A DNA stretch of 64,000 bases from Bradyrhizobium sp. 190 (GTDB lineage Bacteria; Pseudomonadota; Alphaproteobacteria; Rhizobiales; Xanthobacteraceae). Numbering within the stretch: the first letter of the stretch is position 1; each line of letters begins with the position of its first letter. Both the position numbers and the translations under genes were made by a program. Below are positions 17,317 through 35,392 of this stretch, piece by piece. Under the pieces are notes generated by a model. The model was given only the letters and a program-made list of their open reading frames with translations, searched no databases and was not told the origin of the DNA. The stretch is taken from positions 62,001-126,000 of the forward strand of contig NZ_JADPJL010000012.1 in assembly GCF_023073415.1 (NCBI RefSeq), written 5' to 3'.

Positions 17317-17518
17317 TTAGTCTCCGGATCGACCGAAAAAATGTACCCAGACGCACAGGGACGCCGAATATCAGAAAAATTTCAGAATGTCTCGACAGCC
17401 GTTTCAGGACGTTCCCGGCGCGAAATGAGAGGAAAGGGGAGTTGAAGTGGGGAGTCGTGCCGAATGGGGACTGCGATGCCGGACAGGCGCGCGGACCTCT
17501 GACGGCCGGGGGCAGAAC

Positions 17519-20500
17519 ATGTTCGGTACACGTTATTATTACGCCGCCACGCGCGGCATCGGCGGCAGGCGGTTGCGTGCCGCGCTCCTGGCCTCGTCGG
17601 CGCTGGCCTTGGCCTGGACGCTACCGGCGACGCCTTCCCGCGCGCAGGACGCGACCTGGCTGACCAATCCGGGGTCGGGCGACTTCTTCGACGCCAACAA
17701 CTGGAGCCCGAACAGCGTGCCGATCGGCACCGCCACCTTCGGCACATCAGCCACGACCACGCTGACGCTTGGCACCGCCGGCAGCATCGGCGGCTTGACG
17801 CTCAATGCCGGAGCCTCGGCCTACACATTTGACGTCACCGCCAATCAGACCTTCACCGGCGCCGGCATCGTGATCAACGGCGGCGGCGCGACAATCAATT
17901 TCAACTCCGGCACGAACAATTACTTCGAAGGCAGCAGCGCGGCCGGCAATGCCACGATCAACCTCAGCGGCAGCGGCCTGATCTTTCGCCACACGAGCAC
18001 GGCCGGCAGCGCCGCCATCACCAACAGCAGCGGGACCCTCCAGACCGCCAACACGGGTTCGCTCGGCAATGCCACCATCACCAATAACGCCTACCTTTAC
18101 CTCCAGGACAGCAGCACGGCCGGCAGTGCGACGATCACCAATAGCCAAACGATATACTTCTATTACAGCTCGACGGCTGGGACCGCCACGATCGTTAACA
18201 ATAACAGTCTGAATTTGTGGCAAGACTCCAACGCCGGCAGCGCGCACATCACCAACGCCGCCGCAGCCCAGTTCAATATCGAACACAACAGCACACTGGC
18301 CAACGCCACGGTGATCAATAGTGGTCAGATGGCTTTCTGGGGCAGCGGTCCCGGCAACCTCTCGACGGCCGGCAACGCGACGATCACCAACAATGCGGGC
18401 GGCACAATCGAATTCCGCAACGCCAGCACGGCGGGCGGCGCCACGATCACCAATAACTGGGGCCTGCAATTCGTCAACGCCAGCACGGCCGGCAGTGCCA
18501 CCATCACCAACAACCGCGGCATTGGCTTCTATGACACCAGCACGGCGGGCAGCGCCACCATCACCATCACCAACAGTGGCACCCTGGGATTCAACGACGC
18601 CAGCTCGGCCGGCAGCGCCACCATCACCAACAGCGGCAGCCTGGGATTCGGCAACACCGGCACGGCAGGCAACGCCAACGTCACCAACAATAACAACCTT
18701 GTCTTCGGCGGCACCAGCACGGCGGGCAACGCCAATATCACCAACAACAGTCTCCTGAGCTTCTTCGACACCAGCACGGCCGGCAGTGCCGCCCTTGTCA
18801 ACAATTCCGGAGGCACGGTCGATTTCTCGAACAGCACCGGCCCGAACGGCGACGGCAGGCTGAGCGCGGGATCGATCGCGGGGGCCGGCAGCTATCTCCT
18901 CGGTGCCAATGAGTTGACGGTCGGCTCAAACAATCTCTCGACCGAGGTAGGCGGCGTCATCTCGGGCAGCGGCTCGCTGGTCAAGATCGGCACGGGCATC
19001 CTGACGTTGTCGGGCGTCAACGCCTATAGCGGCTCCACGGCGGTCGATGGTGGCACGCTGGCGGTGAACGGCTCGATCCTGTCATCGTCAGGGGTGACCG
19101 TGAATGCCGGCGGCTCGCTCGGCGGCACCGGCACCGTCGGCAACACCACCATCATGAGCGGCGGCAATCTGGCGGCCGGCAATTCGATCGGCACGCTCTC
19201 GATCAACGGCAATCTCACCTTCAATGCCGGCGGCATCTATACCGTCGAGGTCTCGCCCAGCGCCGCCGACCGCACCAATGTCGCGGGCGCCGCGACCCTC
19301 ACCGGCGCCACCGTGCAGGCAGTCCCGCTGATGCCCGCCAGCTTCAAGGCCCAGACCTACACCATCCTCAACGCCAGCGGCGGGTTGGGCGGCACCGAGT
19401 TCGCCGGCCTCGACGTCATCGGGAGCTTCCGTCCAGGCGCACGCAATCCGCACCTGAACTATGATGCCAACAGCGTCTATCTCGTGCTTGATCCCGGCGA
19501 GATCATCCTGCCGTCCGGCACGAACGGCAACCAGTCAAGCGTCGCCGCCGGCATCAACCGAGCCGTGCTCGGCGGCGCCACGCCGCCGGCGGCCTTCGAC
19601 ATCCTGCTCAATCTCGACGGCGCGCCGCTCAAGAATGCGCTGACGCAGATCTCCGGCGAGACGGGGACCGGTGCGCAGCAGAACACGTTCACTGCAATGA
19701 CCATGTTCATGGGGCAACTGACCGACCCGTCCATCGCGGGGAGGGGTGATGCAAACGCACCCGCTGGCGCGTCTTCGTTCGCCGCCGCTGACGCCGGCGC
19801 AGCGAAGCGCGCCGGGACGGCGCGCGACGCCTTTGCCGCAATCGCACCGGCGACGCCGCCTTTGAGCTTCGAACAGCGCTGGAGCGTCTGGGCGGGCGGT
19901 TACGGCGGCGGACAGACCACCGACGGCAACAGCGTGACCGGAACCGGCACCGCGACCAGCCGGATCTATGGCGGCATCGGCGGCGCCGATTATCGCATTT
20001 CACGGGATACGCTGGTCGGCTTTGCGCTGGCCGGCGGTGGAACCAGCTTCAGCGTCGCCAATGGCGGCAGCGGCCGTTCCGATCTGTTCCAGGCCGGCGC
20101 GTTCGCGCGTCACCAACTCGGCGCGGCCTATCTCCTGGGCGCGCTGGCCTATGGCTGGCAGGACGTGACCACGGATCGTACCGTGACAGTCGCGGGCATC
20201 GACCGGCTACAGGCCCGCTTCAAGGCCAATACGTTCGCAGGCCGCGTCGAGGGCGGCTACCGGTTCACAACGCCGTGGATGGGCCTCTCGCCCTACGCCG
20301 CAGGCCAGGTGACGTCGTTCCAACTGCCGGCCTATGCGGAAAGCGTGCTGTCCGGCGCCAACAATTTCGCCCTGAGCTACGGCGCGAAAACCGTCACCGC
20401 CTCGCGCAGCGAATTGGGTTTGCGCACCGACAGATCATGGGCCGTAAACGACGCGATCCTGACACTGCGCGGCCGCGCCGCATGGGCGCATGATTTCAAC

Positions 20501-20713
20501 CCCGATCGCGCAGCCGCCGCGACCTTCCAGACCCTGCCGGGCGCGAGTTTTGTCGTCAACGGCGCAGCCCAGGCGAAAGACGCTGCGCTGGCCACCGCCT
20601 CCGCCGAAATGAAATGGCGCAACGGCTTCTCGGTCGGCGCCACCTTCGAAGGCGAATTCTCCAATGTCACCCGCAGCTACGGCGGCAAGGGCGTCGCGCG
20701 CTATGTGTGGTGA
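17519..20713 (+). CDS. Autotransporter with threonine/alanine-rich repeat passenger
   Basis: 1064 residues from ATG 17519; an earlier GTG frame gives a non-signal-like leader. A long signal peptide ends at PSRAQ. The passenger includes about 15 imperfect repeats of 19-22 residues between roughly residues 138 and 440, with core STAGSATITNN followed by a hydrophobic aromatic strand, as in a beta-helix. A PATR-type segment follows (LTLSGVNAYSGSTAVDGGTL, VNAGGSLGGTGTVGN). From about residue 780 to the end is an autotransporter beta-barrel (WSVWAGGYGGGQTTDGN, ending RYVW). It is predicted to be displayed on or released from the outer membrane. Function beyond surface structure is unknown. Confidence 0.92.
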   Translation: MFGTRYYYAATRGIGGRRLRAALLASSALALAWTLPATPSRAQDATWLTNPGSGDFFDANNWSPNSVPIGTATFGTSATTTLTLGTAGSIGGLTLNAGASAYTFDVTANQTFTGAGIVINGGGATINFNSGTNNYFEGSSAAGNATINLSGSGLIFRHTSTAGSAAITNSSGTLQTANTGSLGNATITNNAYLYLQDSSTAGSATITNSQTIYFYYSSTAGTATIVNNNSLNLWQDSNAGSAHITNAAAAQFNIEHNSTLANATVINSGQMAFWGSGPGNLSTAGNATITNNAGGTIEFRNASTAGGATITNNWGLQFVNASTAGSATITNNRGIGFYDTSTAGSATITITNSGTLGFNDASSAGSATITNSGSLGFGNTGTAGNANVTNNNNLVFGGTSTAGNANITNNSLLSFFDTSTAGSAALVNNSGGTVDFSNSTGPNGDGRLSAGSIAGAGSYLLGANELTVGSNNLSTEVGGVISGSGSLVKIGTGILTLSGVNAYSGSTAVDGGTLAVNGSILSSSGVTVNAGGSLGGTGTVGNTTIMSGGNLAAGNSIGTLSINGNLTFNAGGIYTVEVSPSAADRTNVAGAATLTGATVQAVPLMPASFKAQTYTILNASGGLGGTEFAGLDVIGSFRPGARNPHLNYDANSVYLVLDPGEIILPSGTNGNQSSVAAGINRAVLGGATPPAAFDILLNLDGAPLKNALTQISGETGTGAQQNTFTAMTMFMGQLTDPSIAGRGDANAPAGASSFAAADAGAAKRAGTARDAFAAIAPATPPLSFEQRWSVWAGGYGGGQTTDGNSVTGTGTATSRIYGGIGGADYRISRDTLVGFALAGGGTSFSVANGGSGRSDLFQAGAFARHQLGAAYLLGALAYGWQDVTTDRTVTVAGIDRLQARFKANTFAGRVEGGYRFTTPWMGLSPYAAGQVTSFQLPAYAESVLSGANNFALSYGAKTVTASRSELGLRTDRSWAVNDAILTLRGRAAWAHDFNPDRAAAATFQTLPGASFVVNGAAQAKDAALATASAEMKWRNGFSVGATFEGEFSNVTRSYGGKGVARYVW
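17930..18840 (+). repeat. Array of about 15 degenerate 57-66 base coding repeats
   Basis: Within the autotransporter passenger, the words CGGCAGCGCCACCATCACCA and variants recur every 57-66 bases, encoding STAGSATITNN-like cores. The repeats are most alike between about 18480 and 18780, suggesting recent duplication there. Such arrays expand and contract by slippage or recombination. Confidence 0.85.
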
Positions 20714-33164: not shown

Positions 33165-34907
33165 TCATCCATTGATCATCTCTGGCTTAGCTTCTCGCGC
33201 CCCTCCGAGCAGTTTGATGTTGAGCTTACCGCTCGCGAACAACATGTCATCGAGTGCTTCGCCGAGGTCGGCCGAGCTGATTGTCGCGCCGCCATCGCGG
33301 CCGATACCGGCTTGTGCGGTGCGCCGCATCAACTCCTTGATGAAGGCGGCGCTGACGCCTTTGGTCCGCCGGACGGCCTCGTCGATCAGGGGTTCGTCGA
33401 GCCGCAAACCCTTGCCGTAGAGCTGAACCAGCTTCCGTCGGCCGGCATCATCCGGCAGCGGAATCTCGATCGCCTGATCGACCCGGCCAGGTCGGTTGGC
33501 CAGTGCGCCTTCGAGCTGTTCGGGCCGGTTGGTGGTGAGGACAAACAGAATGTCCGCATCCTCTTTCAATCCGTCCATCTCGTTGAGAAGCTTGTTGAGC
33601 ATGGACTCTTCGCAAGGCCCCATCATCTCGCGATCGGTTGCGATGAGATCGACGTCCTCGATGATCACCATGGCCGGCTGCAGCAGGCGAGCAAGGTTTG
33701 TGTAGGCTCCGAGCAACTCAACCTGCTCGGCCGCGATGATCAACGTCGTATGGCCGGGCAGGTTGCTGGCCAGGTAGCGAATGGTATGGGTCTTTCCGGT
33801 GCCGGGCGGCCCGTACAGCAGGATTCCCTTGCGGGTCGATTGACCGAGCTGGCGCAGCTGTGCGCGATGCTGCACAAAGTCCAGGATGTTGCGGTCGAGC
33901 AGCTTCAGTGTTGCGTCGGGTAGAATCACGTTCGCGCGTTCAATGGGCGGCAGCTTGTGGACCATAAGGCCTCGCGACCTTCCACGATAATTCGCGCCGC
34001 CGTCGAACGACAGGATCTTGCCCCGGTAGCTATTCGCGGCGTTGACTGCGTCCTCGATAGCGATGAAGCAGCGCCTCACGAACTCCGCGCCCGCCGCTCC
34101 GGAAGGCGCCGCGATTTCAATGCGAACACCCGTTTCTTCGCCATGTTCGCGATGAGCAGAGAGCAAGACCGCATATCGCAGGTCTTCGGCGCCACACAGC
34201 CATAATCCATTGTCGAGGCATTTGACCGGCTCGGCTTCGCCAATCTCCACATCATGGTATTGCGCTGGCGCGATGGCATGAGCGGCCTGTCCAGCACTCG
34301 TCAGCGAGGCGAAGGTGAGGGTCTCGTAGCGGTGGCGCTCCTGAATGCCGAAGAACCTGATGCGCTGGATGGAGAACAACTTGTCCACCGCAGCCTGAAC
34401 GTCGGCACGCATGTGCCCGGGAAACTGCCGCGACGTTGCGACCAACCGATCCCGAGGGATACCGGCGAAATGCCATTCAATCGCGGTACAGGCAAAGTCA
34501 AACCGCTTTGTTTCCGTGATGGCGCCGAGATTCTCCGCGGCCGCAAGAAGGCAGTTGTCGCAGACCAACGCCGCCTTGCCGACCAAACGGAGCGGGTTTT
34601 CGGAAAAACTGCCGCACAACTTGCAGCGATCATTGCTGATGTCATCACCGGCTTGGGCCGTCATCGCCAGTTGATGGCCCGACGCCCGGATTCGCTCCTG
34701 TGCAGCCTGCAAGAGCGCCTCAGCGACAGCGCGCGGATACGTGCCGCAAACCGCTTTGCCCCTCTTTTCGATTGTGATCATCACTTCAAAGGCGTCGGTT
34801 GACGATAGACTGAATACTGAACGGAGCAGGCCGATCACAAAATCCTGCGGGGTATTCTTGTCATCATGAAGAACGAGTTGAACGTGACCAGGCTGAACGC
34901 GGTCCAT
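33165..34907 (-). CDS. Fusion protein: ClpS adaptor domain, ClpX-type zinc finger, AAA+ ATPase
   Basis: 580 residues from ATG 34907 (GGAG seven bases upstream). Residues 7-84 align by eye with ClpS: HVQLVLHDDKNTPQDFVIGL then EVMITIEKRGKAVCGTYPRA. Residues 93-130 are a ClpX-like zinc finger with Cys95, Cys98, Cys116 and Cys119 (CKLC, VCDNC). Residues 130-310 are an unassigned middle region. From about 320 to 545 is an AAA+ module of Cdc48/FtsH/BCS1 type, not ClpX type: Walker A GPPGTGKT (366-373), Walker B VIIEDVD (414-420, ED instead of DE) and arginine-finger region NRPGRVDQ (471-478). No protease domain is visible. It is predicted to be a cytoplasmic unfoldase with a built-in substrate-recognition domain. 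In the ClpS part the two Asp of the amino-terminus pocket remain, but the usual Asn before them is His and the usual pocket His is Glu, so specificity may differ. Confidence 0.85.
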   Translation of the reverse strand: MDRVQPGHVQLVLHDDKNTPQDFVIGLLRSVFSLSSTDAFEVMITIEKRGKAVCGTYPRAVAEALLQAAQERIRASGHQLAMTAQAGDDISNDRCKLCGSFSENPLRLVGKAALVCDNCLLAAAENLGAITETKRFDFACTAIEWHFAGIPRDRLVATSRQFPGHMRADVQAAVDKLFSIQRIRFFGIQERHRYETLTFASLTSAGQAAHAIAPAQYHDVEIGEAEPVKCLDNGLWLCGAEDLRYAVLLSAHREHGEETGVRIEIAAPSGAAGAEFVRRCFIAIEDAVNAANSYRGKILSFDGGANYRGRSRGLMVHKLPPIERANVILPDATLKLLDRNILDFVQHRAQLRQLGQSTRKGILLYGPPGTGKTHTIRYLASNLPGHTTLIIAAEQVELLGAYTNLARLLQPAMVIIEDVDLIATDREMMGPCEESMLNKLLNEMDGLKEDADILFVLTTNRPEQLEGALANRPGRVDQAIEIPLPDDAGRRKLVQLYGKGLRLDEPLIDEAVRRTKGVSAAFIKELMRRTAQAGIGRDGGATISSADLGEALDDMLFASGKLNIKLLGGAREAKPEMING

Positions 34908-35201
34908 TGAAAACTCCAGAAAGGGAACTGAAACAGCCTGCCTGATGTACTAGAACAAAGCAAGAACAATTTTAAGTAACCCGCGGAGGTTGTCAGGAGT
35001 AAATAAGGAGGGGACCGACCGAGCCTGATGTCGCACTGGTGCAGCAGGATTTTGGACGTGATTCCCTGTCGGGCAAATCATCTTCGTCAGACCGCGGGTG
35101 CAGCGCACACCCGTCTTCCCGGCGCCCTCTATCTTTGAGGAGGCGAACGGGGAGGCAAACCTCGTGCAAAAACATGTGGCGAAAACGCGAAACTATTTCC
35201 T

Positions 35202-35277
35202 GTCATTGCGAGCGCAGGCAAGCAATCCATGGCTCCGCGCGCGGCTAGATGGATTGCTTCGCGGCGCTCGCAATGAC
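35202..35277. repeat. Palindromic intergenic repeat, second copy
   Basis: The left half GTCATTGCGAGCGCAGGCAA and the right half ending CGGCGCTCGCAATGAC pair imperfectly around a GC-rich loop. It is the same element family as 21041-21116, with a few substitutions in the arms. Confidence 0.8.
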
Positions 35278-35313
35278 GTGGCGAGAGCCGTGCCACGAGG
35301 CTGCAGCTTTTTC

Positions 35314-35392
35314 GTAGGATGGGTGGAGCGAAGCGATACCCATCGCCACACGCCCGGCGCTGATGGGTATCGCTTCGCTCCACCCATCCTAC
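35314..35392. repeat. Palindromic repeat of a second family, 30-base perfect arms
   Basis: Bases 35314-35343 (GTAGGATGGGTGGAGCGAAG and ten more) are the exact reverse complement of 35363-35392, with a 19-base loop. A half copy of the same family lies at 39198-39228. Perfect 30-base arms suggest recent insertion or gene conversion. Confidence 0.87.

Follow-up and report, generated by a model that had tools for sequence, protein, structure and literature searches.

ClpS is an adaptor that takes N-degron proteins to ClpAP (abstract of PMC9663308). One gene of Bradyrhizobium sp. 190, located in the 64,000-nucleotide stretch of DNA analysed here (the window), seemed to join a ClpS domain to a ClpX-type zinc finger and to an AAA ATPase of a clade outside the Clp system, and an initial annotation proposed that the product is a self-contained recognition-plus-unfolding machine. 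The locus therefore raises the question of whether these domains really form one protein, whether its ClpS part can still do what ClpS does, and what the attached motor is likely to do to its clients.

A ClpS domain, a zinc finger and an AAA module on one chain

The gene is a single 580-amino-acid open reading frame that begins with ATG and runs from 34907 to 33165 on the minus strand, with GGAG starting 10 bases upstream of the ATG. Its coordinates had been given correctly in the initial annotation, from which the strand was missing. The features are:

33165..34907, minus strand: whole gene, ClpS - C4 zinc finger - middle domain - AAA ATPase, 580 aa
34659..34892, minus strand: ClpS domain, residues 6-83 (Pfam, PDB ClpS, model)
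34551..34625, minus strand: ClpX-type C4 zinc finger, residues 95-119, CxxC-x17-CxxC
33918..34514, minus strand: middle region, residues 132-330, part of it an alpha/beta domain with no assigned fold
33198..33947, minus strand: AAA ATPase module with lid, residues 321-570 (Pfam, p97 D1 superposition)
33789..33812, minus strand: Walker A, GPPGTGKT, residues 366-373
33645..33668, minus strand: Walker B, VIIEDVDL, residues 414-421, with ED instead of DE

Pfam searches placed ClpS (PF02617, E = 6.7e-16, 58.3 bits versus a cut-off of 23) at residues 6-83, where residues 7-84 had been proposed, and AAA (PF00004, E = 1.1e-19) at residues 362-484, both far above their cut-offs; the finger was recognized at the level of the family. 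Searches of the PDB matched E. coli ClpS at 1.1e-9 with the window fragment alone and Caulobacter ClpS at 3.4e-17 with a family profile. An AlphaFold model of the protein (pLDDT 84.6) contains the beta-alpha-alpha-beta-alpha-beta order of ClpS, an alpha/beta middle domain, and an AAA module with its lid, and it is surer elsewhere than at the finger and linker (block pLDDT 59-72, residues 91-130). The one-chain arrangement, the domain order, the mixed origin of the parts, and the absence of a fused protease all hold as originally proposed. The architecture of the 580-residue protein is certain; its function is not.

The ClpS head keeps its pocket wall and loses its ligands

Two things set the register of the ClpS domain, a gap-free HMMER alignment with E. 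coli ClpS and the HND found here in relatives; they equate E. coli Val33, Asn34, Asp35, Asp36, and His66 with His14, Asp15, Asp16, Lys17, and Glu47 of the window protein. The change of His to Glu that had been reported is correct in this register, whereas the reported change of Asn to His was off by one position (the Asn is replaced by Asp), and only one of the two Asp residues thought to be kept is an Asp, the other being Lys. Caulobacter ClpS, according to passages of PMC12493166, holds the alpha-amino group of its substrate via Asn47, Asp49, and His79, corresponding to E. coli positions 34, 36, and 66; these are Asp, Lys, and Glu in the window protein, which thus lacks the Asn-Asp-His set.

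The same is true across the family. All three alpha-amino ligands are kept in 0/43 fusion ClpS domains (those rows of our 52-row core alignment whose ClpS slice has 75 residues or more), compared with 33/33 stand-alone ClpS proteins of the relatives (obtained from 34 loci tried, mostly ClpS1-type, and many of them near-identical). Position 15 is Asn in 24 of the 43 fusion domains, while the His66 equivalent is found in 4/43 (33/33 in the stand-alone set) and an acid, Glu or Asp, takes its place in 25. None of the 43 has the gatekeeper Met40. The hydrophobic wall of the pocket, by contrast, is retained (Thr38 in 42/43, Val43 in 39/43, and Leu99 in 42/43), so the fused domain could still have a peptide-binding role. 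On another face of ClpS than the pocket lie Glu79 and Lys84, which we take to be the residues that dock onto ClpA, although a search of paper passages for confirmation of these contacts found none. Their equivalents are kept in 1/43 and 0/43 fusion domains, respectively, versus 32/33 and 31/33 stand-alone proteins, and the window protein has Ala60 and Leu65 instead. For M. tuberculosis, ClpC1-ClpS contacts are given at other positions, in that protein's own numbering (passages of PMC6274998).

The fused domain thus resembles ClpS in its fold, its PF02617 match, and its pocket wall, with the equivalents of Asp35, Thr38, and Pro39 mostly kept, and departs from it in being attached to its own ATPase and in its alpha-amino ligands, its gatekeeper Met, and its Glu79/Lys84 face. 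Fold and greasy pocket persist; judging from the residues at these positions, it is doubtful that the domain binds N-degrons in the classical way or docks onto ClpA. The N-degron role first suggested is weakened by the changed alpha-amino ligands, while the conserved pocket wall speaks for it.

Encoded in the same genome are two ordinary stand-alone ClpS proteins, ClpP, and, beside clpP, a ClpX-sized zf-C4 protein, so the fusion is not the housekeeping adaptor. The host ClpS2, which our search pattern missed and which stands outside the stand-alone counts, retains Asn34, Asp36, His66, and Lys84 when inspected by eye, and it also lacks the gatekeeper Met. Two further ClpS arrangements were observed. 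Genomes G031 (L157:2426-2842) and G025 (L158:2008-2310) carry a third, divergent stand-alone ClpS with Thr for Pro39 and no Lys84 equivalent, and a different in-genus fusion, in G019 (L153:1995-3728) and G022 (L154:686-2398), consists of a beta-lactamase-family hydrolase (PF00144, 9.4e-54 in the G019 copy) with a C-terminal ClpS domain (9.1e-26).

The zinc finger is of the ClpX type at the family level

The window protein alone did not match PF06689 (zf-C4_ClpX) among the best 25 of 27 Pfam families at E<=1. The proposed ClpX-type finger is nevertheless real, as its relatives show: PF06689 was matched by 11/52 aligned members at E<=0.1 (best 1.6e-10), and a profile built from 35 finger-bearing rows found ClpX first in the PDB (E = 5.7e-7), with ClpX in all of the top seven rows. 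The only invariant columns of the finger are the four Cys (95, 98, 116, and 119), which agrees with the initial annotation that all four are kept. They are present in 35/35 rows, a figure conditional on having a finger, since two of the 37 slices that were long enough (L084 and L105) have no Cys pattern and were dropped. The segment is therefore like the ClpX zinc-binding domain in its four Cys, its profile, and its top PDB relative, and unlike ClpX in that it sits on a classical AAA module rather than the ClpX AAA+ and is absent in several lineages. One relative (L106) lacks ClpS but carries a clear ClpX finger. Elsewhere in the genome of Bradyrhizobium sp. 190 (L118:1180-1971, contig C31), we noted a protein of 263 aa that has a strong C4 finger of the ClpX type and is too short to contain the ClpX motor.

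A classical AAA motor with BCS1-like traits

The assignment of the AAA module to a non-Clp clade held up. It is nearest to Cdc48/p97 by sequence and to FtsH (5.2e-29) and PAN (1.3e-28) in NCBIfam, where the scores lie far below the cut-offs, and the matches listed (PF00004, FtsH, PAN, and Cdc48) include no ClpX model. Unlike Cdc48/p97, the protein has one AAA stretch and not two cassettes. The FtsH match is limited to positions 176-403 of the 598 in that model, and the chain ends after the AAA lid, so that, unlike FtsH, it has no zinc metalloprotease domain. Walker B reads IIEDVD, confirming the ED for DE that had been pointed out, and Glu417 and Asp418, like Arg475, are invariant in the 52 aligned rows. 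ED in Walker B is a BCS1 motif. Aligned to Cdc48/p97, pore loop 1 is shorter by two residues, and about six more are missing in the helix 2 that follows. Because residues are lacking at pore loop 1, the word unfolding in the original description is uncertain.

Structural comparisons pointed in two directions. VIA-align placed p97 D1 first (Z 21.5, rmsd 2.5, 239 aligned), over the AAA part only. Foldseek with the whole model ranked YjoB, a bacterial chaperone-like AAA ATPase, 1-3 and Bcs1 4-5, over 428-481 columns, close to the full length of those proteins, at rmsd 8.8-11.3. The match to Bacillus subtilis YjoB (PDB 7w46 and 7w42), the best over the whole chain, spans 428-474 columns, with an identity of 18-20% and an rmsd of 8.8-10.3 setting the two proteins apart. 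Similarity to BCS1 lies in the Walker B ED, the whole-chain Foldseek match, and a hydrophobic N-terminal segment in three relatives; the window protein differs in that ClpS and a zinc finger stand where BCS1 has a transmembrane segment (passages of PMC11143374). Given a sequence nearest to Cdc48/p97 and whole-model ranks for BCS1 and YjoB obtained at high rmsd, we refer to the core as a classical AAA with BCS1-like traits and not as BCS1.

The middle region (residues 132-330) had no PDB sequence relative at E<=1. Its domain was modelled at pLDDT 82 and gave weak fold matches of a helix-grip/START-like kind (best Foldseek E 2.1e-4; best VIA Z 7.9). With the middle domain alone, YjoB and Bcs1 fell outside the top 50 of the Foldseek and VIA lists, which is not evidence of absence, and the Bcs1-specific middle domain was not among the best 25 of 27 Pfam matches, although Foldseek does match Bcs1 with the whole model.

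The fusion recurs and is under purifying selection

A search for homologues with the same domain order found that the fusion recurs beyond Bradyrhizobium, in Mesorhizobium, Aestuariivirgaceae, and Sphingomonadaceae; the finger is absent in six Mesorhizobium rows of our tree. A GTDB genome scan gave 137 relatives, of which 80 were kept, mostly from Bradyrhizobium and Mesorhizobium, the others being from Taklimakanibacter, Aestuariivirga, a Rhizobium MAG, Novosphingobium, Sphingomonas, and a few other MAGs. Relatives in Planctomycetes, Verrucomicrobia, an unplaced proteobacterium, and a Kiloniellales MAG match only from about residue 95-146 on. Within the genus, 31/60 genomes (including that of Bradyrhizobium sp. 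190, as in all counts that follow except that for other families) had a match at E<=1e-30. The order sample gave 8/297 genomes in three genera, the class sample 2/385 at 1e-40 (both in the genus), and the phylum sample 7/398 at 1e-50 with a bare-core query (all in the genus), all three being lower bounds because three or four candidates were scored per genome. Other families of the order yielded one match in 40 genomes, to the AAA part only, and none of 161 phage matches or 925 plasmid matches reached 80% protein coverage.

For the core alignment, 108 copies that reach residue 560 were reduced to 56 at 88% identity and, with the fragments L036, L007, L032, and L111 set aside, to 52 rows; five plasmid copies were added for a tree of 57 cores. 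N-terminally, 34 of these have ClpS and the finger, 11 ClpS only (two incomplete N-termini, L039 and L012, were labelled ClpS by hand), one the finger only, three a hydrophobic segment, and eight none of these. The labels are clustered on the tree (9 changes versus a shuffled mean of 21.5), the five plasmid copies form a branch of their own, and the deeper forks are weakly supported. The three hydrophobic segments, which precede the core and were identified by eye, belong to planctomycete relatives. Comparison with six relatives gave dN/dS values of 0.07-0.49 by region, indicating purifying selection in all four regions (one value was undefined, and dS was near saturation for the three more distant relatives). 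At least 4 of the 31 in-genus matches (G001, G004, G011, and G021) are decayed, being interrupted by a stop or a break or reduced to a fragment.

Genomic context

The window gene seems to be on its own: one side has a protein of glyoxalase fold whose start is Tat-like and a small ORF with no match in Pfam, the other a divergent gene for a TPP enzyme, and there is no Fe-S enzyme among its scanned neighbours. We looked for an operon partner by an all-against-all comparison of ORFs from 81 loci (top 60 clusters), outside the in-genus sample with its flanks of ~1.5 kb, and found no neighbour theme; with the focal gene and shadow ORFs set aside, the repeated neighbours (up to 23 loci, with at most 12 loci shown per cluster) look like close Bradyrhizobium synteny. 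Pfam matches at E<=1e-5 for 20 flanking proteins from thirteen loci, out of 82 such proteins listed, were to unrelated families (MFS, CorA, abhydrolases, NuoK, NuoL, and others), with no subtilase and no ClpP among those 20. Proteins with S58 and M78 peptidase domains were each found beside one relative's locus. Two sequence features of the window itself were noted by eye: at 35201-35392, before the gene, two long inverted repeats (GTAGGATGGGTGGAGCGAAGC... and CATTGCGAGCGCCGCGAAGCAATCC...), which resemble dispersed palindromic elements, and, at 17447-20713, an autotransporter-like ORF of 1088 aa with many short STAGxATITN-type repeats.

Several ClpS-less relatives have more telling neighbours. 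Eight plasmid copies, rhizobial or from Paraburkholderia and drawn from the best 40 of 925 plasmid records, include four within or close to nif or fix gene regions, another two by genes for cytochrome P450 and isoprenoid synthesis (presumably gibberellin-type symbiotic clusters), one near groESL, hemN, and TlpA genes, and one without such a setting; pitrilysin-family protease genes lie near two of the eight. On a Rhizobium bangladeshense plasmid (L162:1840-4209), TIR-domain and caspase-family genes are located 3-5 kb from such a relative, away from fixABCX-nifA. A verrucomicrobial bare core (L112:5953-7311) sits in a complex-I operon, flanked by nuoK and nuoL, and its end touches the start of nuoL as predicted mechanically. 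We rejected a link of the window-type gene to symbiosis, as it occurs in 20/39 nifH-positive and 11/21 nifH-negative genomes of the in-genus sample (Fisher p = 1.0; nifH being TIGR01287 above its cut-off, counted by hand).

A -24/-12 (RpoN-type) site scored at least 8 of 10 in 19 of 113 upstream stretches, a set in which the window gene is counted twice and many rows are near-identical. Two near-identical loci of Mesorhizobium (L065 and L071) have an exact site (TGGCACAGATATTGC) ~49-50 bases before the ClpS-AAA gene, and an 8-of-10 site occurs together with a TGT-N10-ACA motif in nine rows of one near-identical Bradyrhizobium group. Shuffles for the promoter motifs gave 7.7% (for a -24/-12 score of at least 8) and 5.8%, and the only site of the window gene itself scores 9 of 10 and lies 388 bases upstream. 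These motifs are suggestive at most of RpoN/NifA control. A term search in a paper on the M. loti NifA-RpoN regulon (PMC3538637) returned no mention of such an ATPase.

Discussion

We tentatively favour the view that the protein is a protease-free, soluble, ATP-driven remodelling factor with BCS1-like traits and a re-tooled, Clp-derived head. The C-terminal classical AAA module would form the motor ring, and ClpS and the ClpX-type finger, both from the Clp protease system, would make up a head at the N-terminus for recruiting substrates or a partner. Since its pocket and its partner-side face are both changed in sequence, the ClpS head probably serves its own motor and not ClpAP. The residues missing at pore loop 1 and the ED in Walker B suggest that this motor, like BCS1, is more likely to push or reshape a client that is folded, wholly or in part, than to thread it to a protease. 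The remodelling view draws on the domains themselves, the recurrence of the fusion and the purifying selection on it, the lost ligands, the shortened pore loop, the Foldseek ranks of YjoB and Bcs1, the planctomycete N-terminal segments, and flanks in which neither subtilase nor ClpP was found. Against it stand the AAA sequence, nearest to Cdc48/p97, FtsH, and PAN, and the first place of p97 in VIA-align; the high rmsd of the YjoB and Bcs1 matches, neither of which is in the top 50 for the middle domain alone; and the pitrilysin-family, S58, and M78 proteases near some loci.

One rival explanation is a factor like BCS1 for the assembly or quality control of folded Fe-S enzymes such as nitrogenase and complex I, to which the ClpS head adds selectivity in alphaproteobacteria. 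BCS1 moves a folded Rieske Fe-S protein and departs from the threading model (passages of PMC12219900 and PMC11143374), and the position of the verrucomicrobial copy between NuoK and NuoL genes, the nif, fix, P450/isoprenoid, and groESL-hemN-TlpA settings of plasmid copies, and the exact -24/-12 sites in Mesorhizobium are all consistent with such clients. The nuo placement is a single locus, however, the plasmid copies form their own branch, high promoter scores also arise in shuffled sequence, and the window-type gene, as common without nifH as with it, has no Fe-S enzyme beside it, so that we regard this factor as unlikely. A self-contained N-degron unfoldase, in which ClpS binds N-degrons, the ring unfolds them, and ClpP or another peptidase acts in trans, is decidedly unlikely: the ClpS fold and pocket wall are kept, the genome encodes ClpP, and the acid that often replaces His66 could bind an alpha-amine (Leptospira ClpS1 likewise has Asp there, according to passages of PMC12493166), but the complete ligand set and the gatekeeper Met are gone from every fusion domain (the latter also from the host ClpS2), the AAA is nearest to Cdc48, FtsH, and PAN and not to ClpX or ClpA, and pore loop 1 is shortened.

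We consider a role of the protein in defence, as an ATPase related to IetA from the IetAS anti-phage system, very unlikely. IetA is its best PADLOC match (1.4e-19), the distribution is patchy and includes broken copies, and one relative lies near the TIR and caspase-family genes, another near an AbiEii-like AAA and an M78/HTH protein; yet the PADLOC match spans only residues 320-536, mainly the AAA part, the NCBIfam models for FtsH and PAN beat that for the anti-phage ATPase (NF042959, IetA; 3.9e-18, 65.7 bits versus a curated 510), and the subtilase partner of IetA is absent from the 20 flanking proteins of thirteen loci. The decayed in-genus copies would also fit a relic or an accidental fusion without a selected function, which dN/dS values of 0.07-0.49 wherever a value was defined, along with four Cys that never vary where there is a finger, make extremely improbable.

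As a kind, AAA remodelling ATPases are already known. For the combination of ClpS, finger, and AAA, our literature search (by title and start of abstract, with subscription journals mostly outside it) found no published description, in keeping with the suggestion that it may be undescribed; passages on ClpS in PMC7159879, PMC1779556, PMC7824862, and PMC12419801 concern other contexts. A more specific proposal, which we think unlikely, is that a BCS1-type motor has acquired ClpS and ClpX heads with a changed pocket to select folded clients, for example Fe-S enzymes, for assembly or repair and not for destruction. If the remodelling view is true, a ClpS head on a non-Clp motor, with a changed partner face, would be a recognition module reused outside proteolysis. 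The fusion offers a system for asking what the ClpS fold recognizes once it is free of ClpA, and how a BCS1-like motor picks its clients in bacteria.
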